The notes below the pieces were generated by a model. The model ran no database searches. It was not told the origin of the DNA and saw only the letters and a list, made by a program, of their open reading frames with translations. Position numbers and translations under genes: made by a program. From positions 124,001-188,000 of the forward strand of contig NZ_FNCB01000001.1 in the NCBI RefSeq assembly GCF_900100855.1: DNA of 64,000 nucleotides, given 5' to 3'. The first letter of the stretch is position 1, and each line of letters begins with the position of its first letter. Of this stretch, positions 26,280-35,078 are shown piece by piece. This DNA is from Idiomarina zobellii (GTDB lineage Bacteria; Pseudomonadota; Gammaproteobacteria; Enterobacterales; Alteromonadaceae).

Positions 26280-26759
26280 ATGGAAAAGTACGAAGAGCTT
26301 TTATTGGCACTCAGAAAAGTGATTAGAGCCATTGACCTCTATTCCAAGCAACTCAACAAGTATTCCGGGCTCACTGCCCCGCAGCTGCTTATTCTAAGAG
26401 AAATTAAAGCCGCCGATGGCATTACCGCCAGTAAAGTGGCTCAGAATATTAATTTAAGTCCCGCCACTGTTTCTAACGTGATTGAGCGGCTCGAACATCG
26501 TCAGCTTATTCACCGGCATCGCAGTGAACAGGACAAGCGTCGGGTGTCACTGTATTTGACCGACAGCGGAATGGAGTTATTGAATAAAGCGCCACAGCCG
26601 TTGCAGGAAGACTTTATTGAAAAGTTTCAGGCGTTAGAAGAATGGGAGCAGTCCTTACTGCTCTCTTCCATGCAGCGCATTGCCAATATGATGGATGCTG
26701 AACGACTCGACGCTGCCCCGGTGTTAGAAGTCGGTAGTTATCACAAACTGGATCATTAA
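26280..26759 (+). CDS. MarR-family transcriptional regulator
   Basis: A 159-residue winged-helix regulator. The recognition region is about residues 35-95 (LTAPQLLILREIKAADGITASKVAQNINLSPATVSNVIERLE), followed by the wing HRHRSEQDKRRVSLYLT, which fits MarR. The ATG has GGAGACC upstream. The stop is separated by only 2 nt from the start of the secreted nuclease gene (TAATTATG), so the two are translationally linked and the regulator may control its own unit. The ligand is unknown. Confidence 0.88.
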   Translation: MEKYEELLLALRKVIRAIDLYSKQLNKYSGLTAPQLLILREIKAADGITASKVAQNINLSPATVSNVIERLEHRQLIHRHRSEQDKRRVSLYLTDSGMELLNKAPQPLQEDFIEKFQALEEWEQSLLLSSMQRIANMMDAERLDAAPVLEVGSYHKLDH

Positions 26760-29514: not shown

Positions 29515-29559
29515 AAAAGTTGGTCTATAAAGTATTAACCCTGGCGTTTGGAGTTTGCC

Positions 29560-29865
29560 ATGAAAAAGCTCATTACTATTGTTAGTGCCACACTGTTATT
29601 TTCTTGTTTCAGCATGGCACAAAATACTGAGCCAACAAAGCAAAATAATGAAAAAGTCGCCACATTTGCGGGTGGCTGTTTTTGGTGTGTGGAAGAAGCT
29701 TTCGAGCAGCTGAGCGGTGTGCGGGAAGTGGTGTCCGGTTACGCTGGCGGCACCGAAGAAAACCCTGGTGGTGAGCAACCGTCGGCAGCGTTAGAGTTTA
29801 TTCCACTGGAAGACATGGAAGAGAGAGGATACGGTGACTACATTTCTGCAGTCACCGGTGATTAA
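29560..29865 (+). pseudogene. Internally deleted MsrA-MsrB methionine sulfoxide reductase remnant
   Basis: A 101-residue frame with a signal peptide ([21 protein letters not shown]) and the start of an MsrA domain: [20 protein letters not shown] with the catalytic Cys, then [11 protein letters not shown]. It then jumps straight to [20 protein letters not shown], which reads like the extreme C-terminus of MsrB. The MsrB catalytic RYCxN and most of both domains are missing. A full MsrA-MsrB fusion would be some 270 residues longer, so an in-frame deletion is the simplest reading. The ATG at 29560 follows GGAG by 6 nt. It may still be expressed but should lack normal reductase activity. Confidence 0.7.
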
Positions 29866-29877
29866 AAAGTTAGAAAA

Positions 29878-31893
29878 CTAAGCAGTCCAGCCGAGCTCTT
29901 TTGCTCGCTGTGCTGCTTGTTGAGGCACGTCTGTTGCTACAAAGTGATGGTGCAATACCTGAACACCCAGCATGTGATTAATCACTGCATCCAGCTGTAC
30001 ACGCTCTTCATTAGGTACGTTTTCGTCCTGATGACGCTCAAAGGTTCTAACCACTTCGTCATAGTCGAGTAACCCTGCAGACTCCACCGCGTCTTTACTT
30101 AAGAACTGCTCAGCGAGCTTTTCTACAGCTTTCCACTTTTCCGGATCGGTATGCGCAGGCGGTGCCATAAAGGCAAACTTTTCACGCTTATACAGGGTTT
30201 CCGGCAAGAGGCCTTTCATCGCTTCACGCAGTACATACTTTTCTTTGTTGCCCTTAATACGTAAATGCGGCGGCACAGTAAACGCATATTCCGCCAAATG
30301 ATGGTCAAGAAACGCAGGACGCGCTTCCATCGAGTTTGCCATATCGACGCGGTCACCACCCCAGGTCAGTATTTGCCCTTCCAGCATGGTTTTTATCCAT
30401 ACATATTGAGCTCTGTCTAACGGGTGACGGCCTTCCAGCATGGTTTCATCCAAAGTATCCGCAATAGCTTCGCTCGGGTCATAATGCTCGACCTGCTGAC
30501 GCTTCTCAGCCGACATTAATGGTAAAGCGACTGACGAGCAGGACAACCAAGGCTGCACGCAACTTGGGGTAAAACCCATTTTCTTATTGAACGCGTCACT
30601 GACAAACTCTTCGCGAGCCAGCATAGCGCCCTTGAATAAGGCATTGTTCTTTTCCAGTAACTCCTGCCATTCAACTCGTTCAACTTCCGGCAAATGGTCA
30701 AGACCATGCAGGAACATATCTTTACGGAACGCCGGGTAGCCCGCAAAGAGCTCGTCCGAGCCCTCGCCTGTCATAACCACCTTATAGCCGGCTTCATGCA
30801 CTTGCTGACTCATTAAATACTTCGCCACACCCAGCGTGTTGTATATAGTTCGCTCTGTATGCCATAGGGTTTTCACAAAGTGATCGTAAAGATCGTTCGC
30901 ATTCAGTCGCATAATATGATGGTCAGCGTTGGTCGCTTCCGCCATCTCTTTCGCTATTGGTGTTTCGTCGTAGTCGTCCGAGTCAAAACCAATGGTAAAG
31001 GCTTTTACGGAAGTTTGAGTTGACGCGGAAGCCAGCCCCAGTATCGAACACGAATCGATACCACCTGACAAATAACAGCCGACCGGTACATCGGCGGTCA
31101 TTCGATGCTGGACCGCCTCTAATAACTTGGCACGGACACCTTCAATGTACTCTTCTTCATCGACGTCAGCCCCCGGGTAACTGTGCTCGGGAGGAAAGTC
31201 GACGTCCCAGTATTTATGCTCTGACGCAACCACTTTGCCGTTTTTACGCTGCAATTTAACGACATAGCCCGGTTGCACCTGGTTTATGCCCTCAAACGCT
31301 GTAGAGCCCGGCACCATGACCTGAATTAATTGGTGATATAAACCTTCCGCCGAGAATTGACGCTTAACATCCGGGTGCGCAAATAAAACTTTCAGCTCCG
31401 AACCAAACACCACGCCGTGCTCGGTTTCCGTCCAGTACAATGGCTTGATGCCGAAACGGTCGCGCACTAAATACAGACTATCGTCTTCGGCATCAAACAA
31501 ACCGAATGCAAACTCGCCACGCAGCTCTTTTAGCGTTTCTTCCAGTCCATAACGCTCGAACAAGTGCAAAACAATTTCTGAGTCGCTTTTACTGTTAAAG
31601 TTTGCACCGCGCGCCGTTAAATCAGCCCGAATACGTTTAAAATCATAAAATTCGCCATTATGTGTCAGCATTAAGCGTTTATCTGCCGACATAAAAGGTT
31701 GACGTCCCCGATTTTCATCGAGGTCAATAATAGATAAGCGAGCGTGACTAAAGCCTACGCCGCGCTCTGGTTGAATCTTGTAACCAAACCCATCAGGACC
31801 GCGATGATGCATAATCGCTGCCATGTTAACCAGAGTTTGAGGATCAATGTCTCTTTCCGTTTGGTGATGAAAAACGCCAGCAATTCCGCACAT
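29878..31893 (-). CDS. asnB: Asparagine-synthase-type glutamine amidotransferase
   Basis: A 671-residue two-domain enzyme. C2 after the initiator Met is the glutaminase nucleophile (MCGIAGVF), with RLSIIDL, NGEFYDF and SDSEIVL completing the class II glutaminase site. The synthetase domain has the PP-loop SGGIDS at 276-281 for acyl-AMP formation. It is over 100 residues longer than E. coli AsnB (554), placing it with the longer amidotransferases, several of which amidate substrates other than aspartate. It is the last gene of the operon and begins 18 nt after the divergent carbamoyltransferase. It may make asparagine, or amidate the carbamoylated product. Confidence 0.85.
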   Translation of the reverse strand: MCGIAGVFHHQTERDIDPQTLVNMAAIMHHRGPDGFGYKIQPERGVGFSHARLSIIDLDENRGRQPFMSADKRLMLTHNGEFYDFKRIRADLTARGANFNSKSDSEIVLHLFERYGLEETLKELRGEFAFGLFDAEDDSLYLVRDRFGIKPLYWTETEHGVVFGSELKVLFAHPDVKRQFSAEGLYHQLIQVMVPGSTAFEGINQVQPGYVVKLQRKNGKVVASEHKYWDVDFPPEHSYPGADVDEEEYIEGVRAKLLEAVQHRMTADVPVGCYLSGGIDSCSILGLASASTQTSVKAFTIGFDSDDYDETPIAKEMAEATNADHHIMRLNANDLYDHFVKTLWHTERTIYNTLGVAKYLMSQQVHEAGYKVVMTGEGSDELFAGYPAFRKDMFLHGLDHLPEVERVEWQELLEKNNALFKGAMLAREEFVSDAFNKKMGFTPSCVQPWLSCSSVALPLMSAEKRQQVEHYDPSEAIADTLDETMLEGRHPLDRAQYVWIKTMLEGQILTWGGDRVDMANSMEARPAFLDHHLAEYAFTVPPHLRIKGNKEKYVLREAMKGLLPETLYKREKFAFMAPPAHTDPEKWKAVEKLAEQFLSKDAVESAGLLDYDEVVRTFERHQDENVPNEERVQLDAVINHMLGVQVLHHHFVATDVPQQAAQRAKELGWTA

Positions 31894-31911
31894 TCTTTGC
31901 TTTTCCTCGTA

Positions 31912-32979
31912 TTAAACGACATCAATGACGCGCTCAGCTCGCTGAACCATGCAGGTCAGTAGCGCCATACGTAAAAACACTGCCCCTCTGGCCTGACTGA
32001 AATACCAGTTATGAGGCGTATGATCTAAGTCCGTTGAAAGTTCTTCACCACGCGCCAGTGGATGCAAAATAATGGCGCTTTCTTTTAGTGGCGACTTTGC
32101 CGACAAGTGAAACTCACTGCCGTACGTATTCACTGAATTACCTTCCCATGAAATGGCATTGATATAAACCACATCAAGCTCTGGTAATACCTCATCGAGC
32201 TCTCTGGTACTGCGAATTTTTATCCCCGCCTGCTCTACCTGTTCTTTTTGTTCACTACCAAATAATTGCTCTGTTGAAGCCTCATCATGAATAATGACCA
32301 GCTCATCAATAGCTTTAGGAAATTTGGTTAAACACTTAATGAAGCTTCTGACCGTGCGCATTTTGTCCGGTACGCCAATAATACCGACTTTTATCGACGC
32401 TTTTTCCGCCTCTTCGGTGACTAAGTCAGGACGCCATTTAAATATCGCGTACATATCAGACAGCGCCTGAGTTGGATGCTCATCGGCACCGTTACCGGCG
32501 TTGATAATTGGGATACGCAGCGAATCGATCATTTCCTCTAACGAGGTCTCGTTGTTGTCCCTAAGCACCACGCAATCGCCGTAATTATTGAACATTTCAG
32601 CGATGTCCGACAAACACTCGCCTTTTGCGATACCAGTAGTTGAGCGGTCGGTTATTGACATAATATCGCCGCCTAGCCGATGCCAGGCACTCTCAAAAGA
32701 CAGCCGCGTACGAGTGCTGGGCTCGTAGAAAGCACTGATTAGAATCTTGCCCTGTAACGACGTACTAAAACGACGCGGATTAGCTTCATACTTTGCCGCC
32801 AAGCGAAACAACTGCAACATGCCTTGCTGAGAAAACTGATCAGCCGACACGATGTGTTGATTCGCTAGTTTCAGTAGGTAATCGCCGTCCTCCTGAATGG
32901 CTTTCAACAACGCCTTCGGGTGGGCATCACCACAGACATCCGGGCGCTCACGTTCGAAGGATACATCCTTTATATTCAT
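31912..32979 (-). CDS. Divergent aspartate/ornithine carbamoyltransferase-family enzyme
   Basis: A 355-residue transcarbamoylase. The carbamoyl-phosphate site is intact: STRTR at 88-92, the loop lysine K119, R140, HPTQ at 168-171 and HPL at 306-308; R208 also matches the amino-acid carboxylate arginine of ATCase. But where ATCase has R-x-Q (R229/Q231 in E. coli) for the second carboxylate of aspartate, this protein reads YINAISWEG (272-280), so Arg is replaced by Ala and Gln by Ser. It is also about 45 residues longer than PyrB. No pyrI or other pyrimidine gene is nearby; it sits between a 38-residue membrane protein and the amidotransferase. I infer a carbamoyl acceptor other than aspartate. 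Confidence 0.82.
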   Translation of the reverse strand: MNIKDVSFERERPDVCGDAHPKALLKAIQEDGDYLLKLANQHIVSADQFSQQGMLQLFRLAAKYEANPRRFSTSLQGKILISAFYEPSTRTRLSFESAWHRLGGDIMSITDRSTTGIAKGECLSDIAEMFNNYGDCVVLRDNNETSLEEMIDSLRIPIINAGNGADEHPTQALSDMYAIFKWRPDLVTEEAEKASIKVGIIGVPDKMRTVRSFIKCLTKFPKAIDELVIIHDEASTEQLFGSEQKEQVEQAGIKIRSTRELDEVLPELDVVYINAISWEGNSVNTYGSEFHLSAKSPLKESAIILHPLARGEELSTDLDHTPHNWYFSQARGAVFLRMALLTCMVQRAERVIDVV

Positions 32980-32983
32980 AGAA

Positions 32984-33100
32984 TTACCATATTGTTTTTG
33001 AAATTAAATCTTTTACCCAGAGCACCAGAAGTATTACAGGCGCTACGCAGCTGAGGATCAATGCGATGATGATCATCCACTCGAATACCGACTCACTCAT
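32984..33100 (-). CDS. 38-residue single-span membrane protein
   Basis: A short gene with ATG at 33098-33100 and stop at 32984-32986. The peptide is MSESVFEWMI, then a hydrophobic helix (about residues 8-28) with one Cys and one Pro, ending WVKDLISKTIW. Its ATG lies inside the last codons of the symporter gene (overlap of 8 nt, ATGAGTGA), and its stop is 4 nt before the carbamoyltransferase ATG. Such spacing strongly suggests a real, translationally coupled gene. It may be an accessory subunit of the symporter; no family is recognised. Confidence 0.65.
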   Translation of the reverse strand: MSESVFEWMIIIALILSCVAPVILLVLWVKDLISKTIW

Positions 33101-34526
33101 TAGCATGTGCGTCTTCCTCCTGCAGCTGGTTCCAGTCAAAGCTGTCTTGGCTGGTCATAATACCCACAGCACATATCACGCCCGATACGGCACACGACAC
33201 CAGCGCAGCCACATAAAACCCGATGATGAAATACCCTATCATGCCGCACGCGGTACCCGCTGCCATAGCTATTGCTGCATAAGTACCGGTCAGCTTCTTA
33301 TGATAAAGCCCCAGTAATATTGGCCAGATAGTGCTTGCCACAAAAGCGCCGGCAAAATTCAGTAATGCCCCCAGCGTGGCTATTTTTGGAAGGCAGAAAA
33401 GCCAGGTCACAATACCAAGCCCTAAAATACAGCTTCGGTTAAACCGCATCAGGTTTTTATCTGACGCACCTGGTTTTAGCTTTTTGTGATAAATATCTTG
33501 TGTAACCAGATCTGAGGTCGCAGCCAGCAAAGAATCAAGACTGGACGCTAAGGCTGAAAATATCACGATAAAAACGATAACCGCGCCAGCTTTCCCTAAC
33601 ACCGCAGCAGCAACCGTGGGGCCTATCATGTCCATGCTCGGCGGGAATATGCCCAGCTGCGGGGCCGCCAAAGCAATAAAACCAGTAACAATAGGTATAG
33701 GCAGCCACATTAACCCGCCGGTCAAATAGGCTTTATAAGCGACACCTTTTTTAAACGACAATGCCCGTGACCACCATACGTTGGAGTGAAATATCTCACC
33801 CAGACCAAAGAAAATATTATTAAATAAGAACATAACGGCGGCAGGAAATAGGACATCCAGCAGTTTTGGGTGCTCCGCTGTCAAATTTTCATGAATACTG
33901 CTAAGACCGATATTGTCAATAAGCCAATAGGCAATAAAGCTGACCCCAGCGATAATAATGAGAGCCTGGATAAAGTCGGTTGCGATAACCGCGCGCATAC
34001 CGCCAAACAAGGTATATCCCACACAAATGATCAAAATTGTGGTCATCCCGATGTGGTAGTCGAGCCCGGTTAAAGACTCCAGAAGAATACCACCCGCCAT
34101 GCCAAGACTGATTAACCAGCCGAATGCATAGACCACAGAAATAATAATGAACACAACCCAGGCAAACTGCCCATAGCGCAGCCGGATAAAGTCACCTGAG
34201 GTATAACCGTTAGGCAGCAGCTGTTTAATGCGTTTCGCCATGGGGGCGAACAAAATAAGCCCCAGCGCTGCAAATGAGTAGCCTATCATGCCCCACACGC
34301 CAAACTGGAACGTCAGCTGCGGCGCAACCAAAGTGGTATTACTGGTCACCCAGGTTGCCATCGCCGTCGCCGCTGCAAAAGCAAAACCGACGTTTCGGCC
34401 GGCTAACGCAAAGTCTTCATGGCTTTTATTTTTGCGACCCAGCCAATACCCAAAACCTATCCAAAACAGGCCAAAAAGCACAATGATGAGAATGCCGGTA
34501 CTTGTGTCCAGTGCAAATTCAGTCAT
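33093..34526 (-). CDS. Sodium:solute symporter (SSS family)
   Basis: A 477-residue transporter with about 12-13 transmembrane helices and the LeuT-like SSS fold. The start reads LDTSTGILIIVLFGLFWIGFGYWLGRKNKSHEDFALAGRNVG, as in the family. GFG and FALAGR near helix 1-2 and the FSALASSLDSLLAATSDLVTQDIY region of helix 8, which supplies Na2-site Ser residues, are clear. The substrate is unknown; the family carries proline, sugars, urea, pantothenate and others. The start overlaps the upstream gene by 8 nt and its end overlaps the small membrane gene, so it is embedded in the operon. Confidence 0.9.
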   Translation of the reverse strand: MTEFALDTSTGILIIVLFGLFWIGFGYWLGRKNKSHEDFALAGRNVGFAFAAATAMATWVTSNTTLVAPQLTFQFGVWGMIGYSFAALGLILFAPMAKRIKQLLPNGYTSGDFIRLRYGQFAWVVFIIISVVYAFGWLISLGMAGGILLESLTGLDYHIGMTTILIICVGYTLFGGMRAVIATDFIQALIIIAGVSFIAYWLIDNIGLSSIHENLTAEHPKLLDVLFPAAVMFLFNNIFFGLGEIFHSNVWWSRALSFKKGVAYKAYLTGGLMWLPIPIVTGFIALAAPQLGIFPPSMDMIGPTVAAAVLGKAGAVIVFIVIFSALASSLDSLLAATSDLVTQDIYHKKLKPGASDKNLMRFNRSCILGLGIVTWLFCLPKIATLGALLNFAGAFVASTIWPILLGLYHKKLTGTYAAIAMAAGTACGMIGYFIIGFYVAALVSCAVSGVICAVGIMTSQDSFDWNQLQEEDAHANE

Positions 34527-35022
34527 GGGGATGGTGCCGCGAGTGTGTCCATTTACGATGAAGTAAAAGCAACGTGGTTACGACGGCCACAAAAATAATT
34601 AAACCAATAAAAAATAGTGTCAGCGCCTGCCACAGAGGATAATGCTTAACGGTAACCTGAATAACATTACTGACCAGCGACTCGCCGCTTTTGGTTTCGG
34701 CTTTGGCTCTTAAGTGATAACTGCCATTTGAAAACCCGGTTAACGATATGGTGGAAAAGTCACCCAGTGCAGGAAACTGTTTCTGGCTTTCAGTAAAGCT
34801 TGCGTCTGTCGCTACTTCAATCGTTAACTTGTCGAGCTTTTGCTGCTCTGACTTTGCAGACACTGAGACATTAAAGTACCCTTCTTTAATAACTGAAGTA
34901 GGCCCTTCAATGGTAAGCTGGTGAGCTGATTCATTCGCAAGGGTTGGCGTTGGCAGAAAGCCAATAAAACAAAATAAAAACAAGATATAGCAATAGTTAA
35001 AGCTTTTTTTGTTTTTTGTCAT
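34519..35022 (-). CDS. Membrane-anchored protein with Ig-like periplasmic domain
   Basis: A 167-residue protein from the ATG at 35022; an in-frame TTG at 35046 is a weaker alternative. It has a signal-type N-terminus (about residues 8-28), an Ig/fibronectin-like beta domain (about 35-125, with VSVSAKSEQQKLDKLTIEVATD and GSYHLRAKAETKSG), a C-terminal transmembrane helix (about 130-152), and a short basic, His-rich cytoplasmic tail. It is the first gene of the symporter/carbamoyltransferase/amidotransferase operon and overlaps the symporter start by 8 nt. A substrate-binding or regulatory role for the symporter is possible; no named family is recognised. Confidence 0.65.
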   Translation of the reverse strand: MTKNKKSFNYCYILFLFCFIGFLPTPTLANESAHQLTIEGPTSVIKEGYFNVSVSAKSEQQKLDKLTIEVATDASFTESQKQFPALGDFSTISLTGFSNGSYHLRAKAETKSGESLVSNVIQVTVKHYPLWQALTLFFIGLIIFVAVVTTLLLLHRKWTHSRHHPHD

Positions 35023-35070
35023 TAAGACATCTGCTCGCCAACGCAAGTTGAAATTTCAGGCTATCAGCCA

Positions 35071-35078
35071 ATTATAGC
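35071..35078 (-). promoter_or_regulatory. GCTATAAT -10 element of the symporter/carbamoyltransferase operon
   Basis: Minus strand TATAAT (35071-35076) preceded by GC, about 50 nt upstream of the first ATG. No good -35 hexamer is present at 16-18 nt. A strong -10 with C at -13 and a poor -35 resembles promoters read by the stress sigma factor RpoS, but ordinary sigma-70 use is also possible. Confidence 0.45.

Follow-up and report, generated by a model that had tools for sequence, protein, structure and literature searches.

A run of five genes in the genome of the halophilic marine bacterium Idiomarina zobellii (2.58 Mb) joins a carbamoyltransferase (CT) and a glutamine-hydrolysing amidotransferase of the AsnB type (ASN) to a sodium-coupled symporter of the SSS family (SSS) and two further membrane proteins. 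This raises the question as to what the two enzymes would make together, and whether their product is also what the symporter carries. The window analysed here is a stretch of 64,000 nucleotides (contig NZ_FNCB01000001.1, positions 124,001 to 188,000), and the coordinates given below refer to it. An earlier note on this DNA had suggested that CT and ASN carbamoylate and amidate an amino acid to give a compatible solute like N-alpha-carbamoyl-L-glutamine 1-amide (CGA), a compound that was reportedly described in 1991. Sequence comparisons support that suggestion along five lines, namely the presence of the pair in Ectothiorhodospira marismortui, the co-occurrence of its two genes across genomes, residue changes in CT, linked hydrolases in relatives, and the subfamily of a nearby MarR regulator. 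We put at about three in four the probability that this is a CGA compatible-solute operon, serving synthesis and Na+-driven uptake and devoid, in Idiomarina, of degradation genes. The product is very probably an N-carbamoyl amino-acid amide, with CGA as the most likely candidate, and SSS would take up the solute.

The enzyme pair and its occurrence

CT (31912-32979, minus strand) is an open reading frame of 355 residues with the Pfam domains OTCace_N and OTCace, for which we propose N-alpha-carbamoylation of L-glutamine. ASN (29878-31893, minus strand; 671 residues, GATase and Asn_synthase domains) is the proposed amidating enzyme, acting on the 1-carboxylate of N-carbamoyl-L-glutamine. According to portions of two reviews, CGA accumulates in E. 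marismortui (PMC1224877, PMC3857566), and the contig NZ_FOUO01000006.1, titled Ectothiorhodospira mobilis DSM 4180, carries the gene series MarR-HyuC-ISO-CT-ASN, in which HyuC is an N-carbamoyl-amino-acid hydrolase-type protein and ISO an isochorismatase-type protein. PMC8877833 assigns FOUO00000000 to the type strain E. marismortui DSM 4180; in the NCBI taxonomy, this species name is filed under E. mobilis. The genes are thus present in the CGA-making species, at the level of the species and its type strain DSM 4180. The CT encoded on this contig is 100% identical to the first sequence of our query alignment and about 61% identical to that of Idiomarina. It is one of three PF02729 proteins in E. 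marismortui, the other two having ornithine carbamoyltransferase motifs and a PyrB-type R-L-Q-R-E-R, respectively.

The earlier note named no gene set for CGA, and our search found no assignment either: no published genes for the compound turned up in the literature searched, subscription journals being mostly outside it. Sucrose, N-acetylglutaminylglutamine amide (NAGGN) and carbamoyl-glutamine amide are named in PMC7824335 as solutes that other purple sulfur bacteria were found to contain, and the portions considered of this paper, PMC1224877 and PMC3857566 name the solute and no genes for it. The 2025 description of Idiomarina aminovorans ATCH4 reports solute genes, betABT among them, but neither 'carbamoyl' nor 'asparagine' is found in its main text (PMC12279604); the operon is present in the genome of that strain.

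CT (E 1e-60) was found in all 19 Idiomarina genomes examined, counting our own; of 17 genomes from elsewhere in the family, two had it. Twenty relatives carry CT, and the order Ig-SSS-small-CT-ASN, where Ig is an Ig-like and small a 38-residue membrane protein, is kept in 18/18 of their loci that were fetched; the small protein is present in 18/18 and the Ig-like gene in 17/18 (none detected in L042). Being kept across the loci of relatives, the gene order is more than chance. In a draw of 369 gammaproteobacterial genomes, CT was matched in 25 (E 1e-55), 23 of them at 56-100% identity, our own included, and two at 39-40%. ASN (E 1e-190) occurs in 20 of the 369, and all 20 lie inside the 23 CT genomes; in the three without an ASN match the contig ends inside CT (G092) or inside ASN (G394), or the ASN frame is split in two (G299). 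A phylum-wide draw of 398 genomes gave our own and one with a 45% CT homologue, from another class of the phylum (L200). The latter keeps Ig-SSS-CT-ASN, with ASN at 49%, encodes a carbamoylase on the opposite strand some 1.4 kb past ASN, and is perhaps an early branch of the cassette.

A pattern scan of genome contigs gave at least 596 matches, at least 576 of them relatives, and the best 80 by similarity to the query were kept (the 80 named loci); the list is biased towards close relatives because of this ranking. By tblastn (E 0.01, best hit), these loci contain ASN in 78, always on the same strand as CT, SSS in 69, HyuC in 56, ISO in 51, HyuC and ISO together in 50, the Ig-like gene in 43, MarR in 39 and the small protein in 24. 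For the 64 with 4.7 kb on both sides, the counts are 63 (ASN), 54 (SSS), 48 (HyuC) and 43 (ISO). One of the two loci without ASN, L102, meets a contig end; the other, from Thiorhodospira sibirica (L098), has none within 8 kb. The list spans Ectothiorhodospira species, Thiorhodospira, Thioalkalivibrio, Thiohalobacter, Thiohalophilus, Thiogranum, Kangiella, Aliikangiella, Pleionea, Aliidiomarina and Pseudidiomarina, as well as metagenome-assembled genomes (MAGs) of Leptospiraceae and Spirochaetaceae. A rearranged order, CT-HyuC-ISO-ASN, is seen in L124, L126, L138, L150, L151, L157 and L159, six of which are titled Leptospiraceae or Spirochaetaceae and one 'bacterium', and in the spirochaete MAG locus L169 CT is followed directly by ASN. 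The rearranged cassette in spirochaete-titled MAG loci may reflect horizontal transfer. No relative turned up when viral contigs were scanned once and plasmids were searched once at the protein level. Pairwise distances of CT, ASN, SSS, HyuC and ISO correlate with r of 0.85 to 0.94, which is weak support because shared species history alone yields high values. Co-occurrence of the pair across genomes including Ectothiorhodospira, which the earlier note had proposed as a check on its idea, was found in E. marismortui DSM 4180, in seven other Ectothiorhodospira loci and in 20/20 ASN genomes with CT.

Substrate-site residues

What CT could carbamoylate was examined by aligning 22 orthologs with E. 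coli PyrB, whose numbering is used throughout. In aspartate transcarbamoylase (ATCase), R229 and Q231 bind aspartate; the side-chain carboxylate of the substrate meets R229, and its alpha-carboxylate meets R167. PMC6056424 describes E233 as orienting Arg229 into the active site and Arg167 as contacting the substrate analogue PALA (N-phosphonacetyl-L-aspartate). All 22 CTs keep S52, T53, R54, T55, K84, R105, H134, Q137, R167 and L267, and in all 22 the aspartate-site residues R229, Q231 and P268 are replaced, by A or S at 229, A or S at 231 and A at 268, with an invariant Trp directly after position 231. The alignment therefore bears out that the aspartate R-x-Q motif is missing from CT. At position 165, the Y of PyrB gives way to R, K or N; K83 and E233 are opposite alignment gaps. 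Across the 80 named loci, EPSTRTR is present in 80/80, and the replacement pattern at the aspartate site is matched in 79, L166 being the unmatched one; Arg stands at 229 in none and Lys in one.

Since nearly all carbamoyl-phosphate residues are kept and the aspartate residues lost, the expected substrates of CT are carbamoyl phosphate and an amino acid that has a free alpha-carboxylate and no side-chain acid. Glutamine fits this description, with carbamoylation preceding amidation. By overall likeness CT is closest to ATCases: the predicted model (mean pLDDT 85.7) matches them, the top six rows having Z of 37.0 to 37.6 and rmsd of 1.8 to 2.3, and the best sequence matches are ATCases as well. 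All 50 structural matches listed are ATCases, which does not argue against other transcarbamoylases. The likeness could suggest a second ATCase for pyrimidine synthesis or, as a variant, a pair that makes N-carbamoyl-asparagine from carbamoyl-aspartate, but R229, Q231 and P268 are missing in 22/22, the TIGR00670 score of 203 is below the cut-off of 237, and the same genome encodes a separate PyrB with R-x-Q and HPLPR. A second ATCase was rejected on the changed substrate residues and the separate PyrB, and to the alternative as a whole we attach next to no probability. The ornithine carbamoyltransferase motifs HCxP and D-x-W-x-SMG are likewise missing in CT, which has HPLAR and INAISW instead; both motifs are seen in the ArgF of the same genome.

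The pair could make another N-carbamoyl amino-acid amide in Idiomarina, for example from asparagine or another neutral amino acid, given that side-chain specificity is not readable from the lost R-x-Q alone, the motif being replaced by small residues and a conserved Trp, and that the CTs of Idiomarina and E. marismortui share only about 61% identity. Against this, columns 229, 231, 232 and 268 of the substrate site hold the same kinds of residue in both enzymes, and CGA is the sole N-carbamoyl amino-acid amide named in the portions of PMC7824335, PMC1224877 and PMC3857566 considered, where Idiomarina is not named as a producer. We regard another amide as unlikely, and CGA as the preferred product.

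ASN has the features expected of a glutamine-dependent amidotransferase, with an MCGIA start (N-terminal Cys2) and the ATP loop SGGIDS at 276. Three NAGGN enzymes were compared with it and share 31-32% identity, and it scores 303 bits with the NAGGN model TIGR03104, below the cut-off of 570.

L088, L089 and L090 hold paralogues of CT, about 37% identical, in which the S-T-R-T motif is altered and which lack operon partners in the fetched stretch; one genome (G305) holds both CT and the altered-motif kind.

Linked hydrolases, transport and regulation

Many gammaproteobacterial relatives have HyuC and ISO encoded in a stretch of about 2 kb that separates the Ig-like gene from the symporter gene. 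HyuC scores 532 bits with NF006771 (cut-off 399) and is above the cut-off of TIGR01879; it stays below that of the ErtE N-carbamyl-L-glutamate amidohydrolase model (393 vs 520), and its best solved match is the N-carbamoyl-L-amino acid hydrolase 3n5f. ISO belongs to Pfam Isochorismatase, and its best NCBIfam model, biuret amidohydrolase, gives 78 bits vs a cut-off of 370. The two would form the hydrolytic mirror image of carbamoylation and amidation, a feature of the system that is new here. An enzyme that adds a carbamoyl group and one that adds an amide are linked to a family that removes carbamoyl groups and a family that often acts on amides, which fits a metabolically reversible N-carbamoyl amino-acid amide. 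One HyuC homologue (47-49%) is also encoded in 13/13 genus members searched; the copy in the genome studied here (47%) lies on contig C23 among unrelated genes.

The symporter gene (33093-34526, minus strand; 477 residues) encodes the proposed solute importer. Pfam SSF matches residues 39-424 at 110 bits (cut-off 22.8), placing the protein in the SSS family; its TIGR00813 score of 141 is below the cut-off of 184, and its best-scoring solved relatives are DUR3 urea transporters. Between SSS and CT lies the gene for the small single-helix membrane protein (32984-33100, minus strand; 38 residues). The first gene (34519-35022, minus strand; ATG start, 167 residues) encodes a single-pass membrane protein of Ig/FN3-like type, probably an accessory of SSS. 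This protein has zero Pfam matches; in its AlphaFold2 model (mean pLDDT 78.5) a beta-sandwich is joined by a C-terminal helix, and the Foldseek matches include many FN3 domains, in line with the Ig-like protein of the earlier note. That note had also described five tightly packed minus-strand genes, and all five open reading frames are present, with overlaps of 8 and 8 nt and gaps of 4 and 18 nt that agree with the coordinates.

A MarR-family regulator that may belong to the system, and that the earlier note had not mentioned, is encoded outside the operon (26280-26759, plus strand). Relatives of it (E 1e-28) occur in 40 of the 369 gammaproteobacterial genomes. Of the 39 other than our own, 20 are within about 2 kb of ectA (18 of them also of ectB), five are beside a NAGGN amidotransferase gene and two are near a CT operon; the resulting 27/39 is a raw count with no chance background. 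The five NAGGN amidotransferases (L245, L255, L257, L263 and L264) are above the TIGR03104 cut-off; a NAGGN label for L250 and L251 was dropped because the matches are 30% identical and more than 4 kb away. Two EctA proteins are confirmed by curated cut-offs, and the other ect assignments are by similarity to the proteins of L210. EctR1 and CosR are MarR-type repressors of ectABC, as excerpts of PMC7876524 state. In a FastTree phylogeny, the MarR of the window groups (support 0.989) with those encoded close to the CT operons of Kangiella and Aliikangiella, in a clade that also holds those of L233 and L234 (own family, near none of these genes) and other Idiomarina-group MarRs. These data hint at one MarR family for several amide-type solutes and ectoine. 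Ectoine synthase (PF06339) gave zero matches in 21 genomes (13 belong to the genus), in a search where no control genome matched either.

The E. marismortui operon adjoins a sucrose synthase gene (2864-5248 of L091; TIGR02470 1182 bits, cut-off 810), which is a second possible solute gene at this place, and is followed by a sugar-kinase-like gene for which all models are below their cut-offs.

With a symporter that scores best against DUR3 urea transporters and both hydrolase genes in 50/80 named loci, one could also imagine an operon for uptake and catabolism of ureido compounds as a nitrogen source, CT running phosphorolytically. We consider this improbable: a glutamine- and ATP-dependent synthetase of the AsnB type accompanies CT in 78/80 named loci, even where the hydrolases or the symporter are missing, and both the subfamily of the MarR and the neighbouring sucrose synthase gene suggest osmolytes.

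A scan for promoters and terminators around the operon gave counts close to those in shuffled sequence, and a repeat search found no outstanding repeat pair on both sides of it. Beside the operon end, at 29548-29865 of the window (plus strand), lies an MsrA-type gene of which only the start and the last stretch are left, that is, with an in-frame internal deletion. In L027 and L031, relatives from the same genus, an MsrA/MsrB-type frame runs to about 385 residues, and L026 carries the same shortened form.

Proposed pathway and its standing

In the pathway that we propose, CT would carbamoylate L-glutamine at its alpha-amino group, with carbamoyl phosphate as the donor, and ASN would use ATP and glutamine to amidate the 1-carboxylate of the resulting N-carbamoyl-L-glutamine. 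The Na+-coupled SSS, with the 38-residue and FN3-like membrane proteins as putative accessories, would import or recover the solute. In many relatives ISO could strip the amide and HyuC the carbamoyl group, so that glutamine is regained, and the MarR of the ectoine- and NAGGN-linked subfamily may control the operon. Substrates, product, transport and regulation are all inferred, and the weakest links are the substrate of CT, the cargo of the symporter, the role of MarR in Idiomarina, and the scarcity of CGA reports relative to how common the pair is.

Several observations weigh against a CGA operon. S80, a further residue of the ATCase active site, is G in 22/22 CTs; it is A in the PyrB of the same Idiomarina genome. 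The Idiomarina cluster has neither HyuC nor ISO, the Ectothiorhodospira loci have no symporter, and T. sibirica has, besides no ASN, no SSS or hydrolase within 8 kb of a CT that is 77% identical to that of E. marismortui. The MarR gene lies on the opposite strand, 3.1 kb past the operon end; for 12 of the 39 relatives there is no ect, NAGGN or CT gene nearby; and in the FastTree analysis the MarRs encoded inside the operons of Ectothiorhodospira and Thioalkalivibrio make up a clade of their own. Among the literature matches listed, nothing relevant concerned salt-dependent expression in Thioalkalivibrio or Idiomarina. Passages of the 2013 review call CGA a minor solute of one organism only, at odds with how widespread the pair is, and report no CGA signal in Raman spectra of E. 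marismortui extracts (PMC3857566). The few reports despite a common pair may be explained by few strains having been grown without betaine and examined by nuclear magnetic resonance.

Two further such observations concern ASN. It scores 453 bits with TIGR01536 (asparagine synthase, glutamine-hydrolysing; cut-off 267), which places it in that superfamily, and it is the sole strong Asn_synthase protein in the Idiomarina genome, in a search that had AsnA and the tRNA-dependent route outside it. ASN could therefore have an ordinary asparagine-synthase role, and its link to CT might be metabolic rather than one pathway. The TIGR01536 score does not discriminate, because NAGGN enzymes also exceed that cut-off. 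ASN orthologs occur only with CT (20/20), and the pair is also present in E. marismortui, where four other strong Asn_synthase proteins exist besides the one linked to CT; the latter shares 67% identity with ASN, and the three others compared share 29-31%. An ordinary asparagine synthase seems to us very improbable here, and we retain ASN as the amidating partner of CT.

A broader reading takes CGA for a compatible solute that is widespread among halophiles and marine bacteria (Idiomarina with its relatives, Kangiella, Thioalkalivibrio, Ectothiorhodospira, several uncultured Gammaproteobacteria and spirochaetes), with a dedicated cassette for synthesis, uptake and reversal under MarRs related to those of ectoine and NAGGN. 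We lean somewhat towards it. If true, it would add one more generally important system for a solute made from an amino acid, the transcarbamoylase fold would extend to a new class of substrate, and what was nearly a one-organism curiosity would become a solute predicted in many halophiles. The operon offers testable candidate genes for the compound reported in 1991, for which the literature searched names no genes. It would also give a function to proteins otherwise taken as PyrB-like and AsnB-like, and establish a transcarbamoylase specific for glutamine. Given the linked genes for uptake and breakdown, CGA may also be traded as a nitrogen-rich nutrient in saline waters.

The system can be set beside several that are known. 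It is closest to the CGA of E. marismortui itself, since its type strain has linked copies of the same CT and ASN genes. The NAGGN pathway is similar in that a blocked glutamine derivative is amidated by an AsnB-family enzyme, and the same MarR subfamily stands beside NAGGN genes in 5/39 cases; the amino group, however, is acylated in NAGGN and would be carbamoylated here. CT shares with PyrB the fold and, except for S80, the carbamoyl-phosphate residues checked, whereas the aspartate-binding R229, Q231 and P268 are replaced. The ectoine genes with EctR/CosR may resemble the system in that a MarR gene lies near biosynthesis genes, at 3.1 kb from the operon in the window, but the enzymes and the product are different. 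Finally, the N-carbamoyl-L-amino-acid hydrolases of the hydantoinase/carbamoylase family are represented by the linked HyuC in 56/80 named loci; unlike them, the HyuC of relatives stands with a synthetic pair, and the Idiomarina cluster has none.

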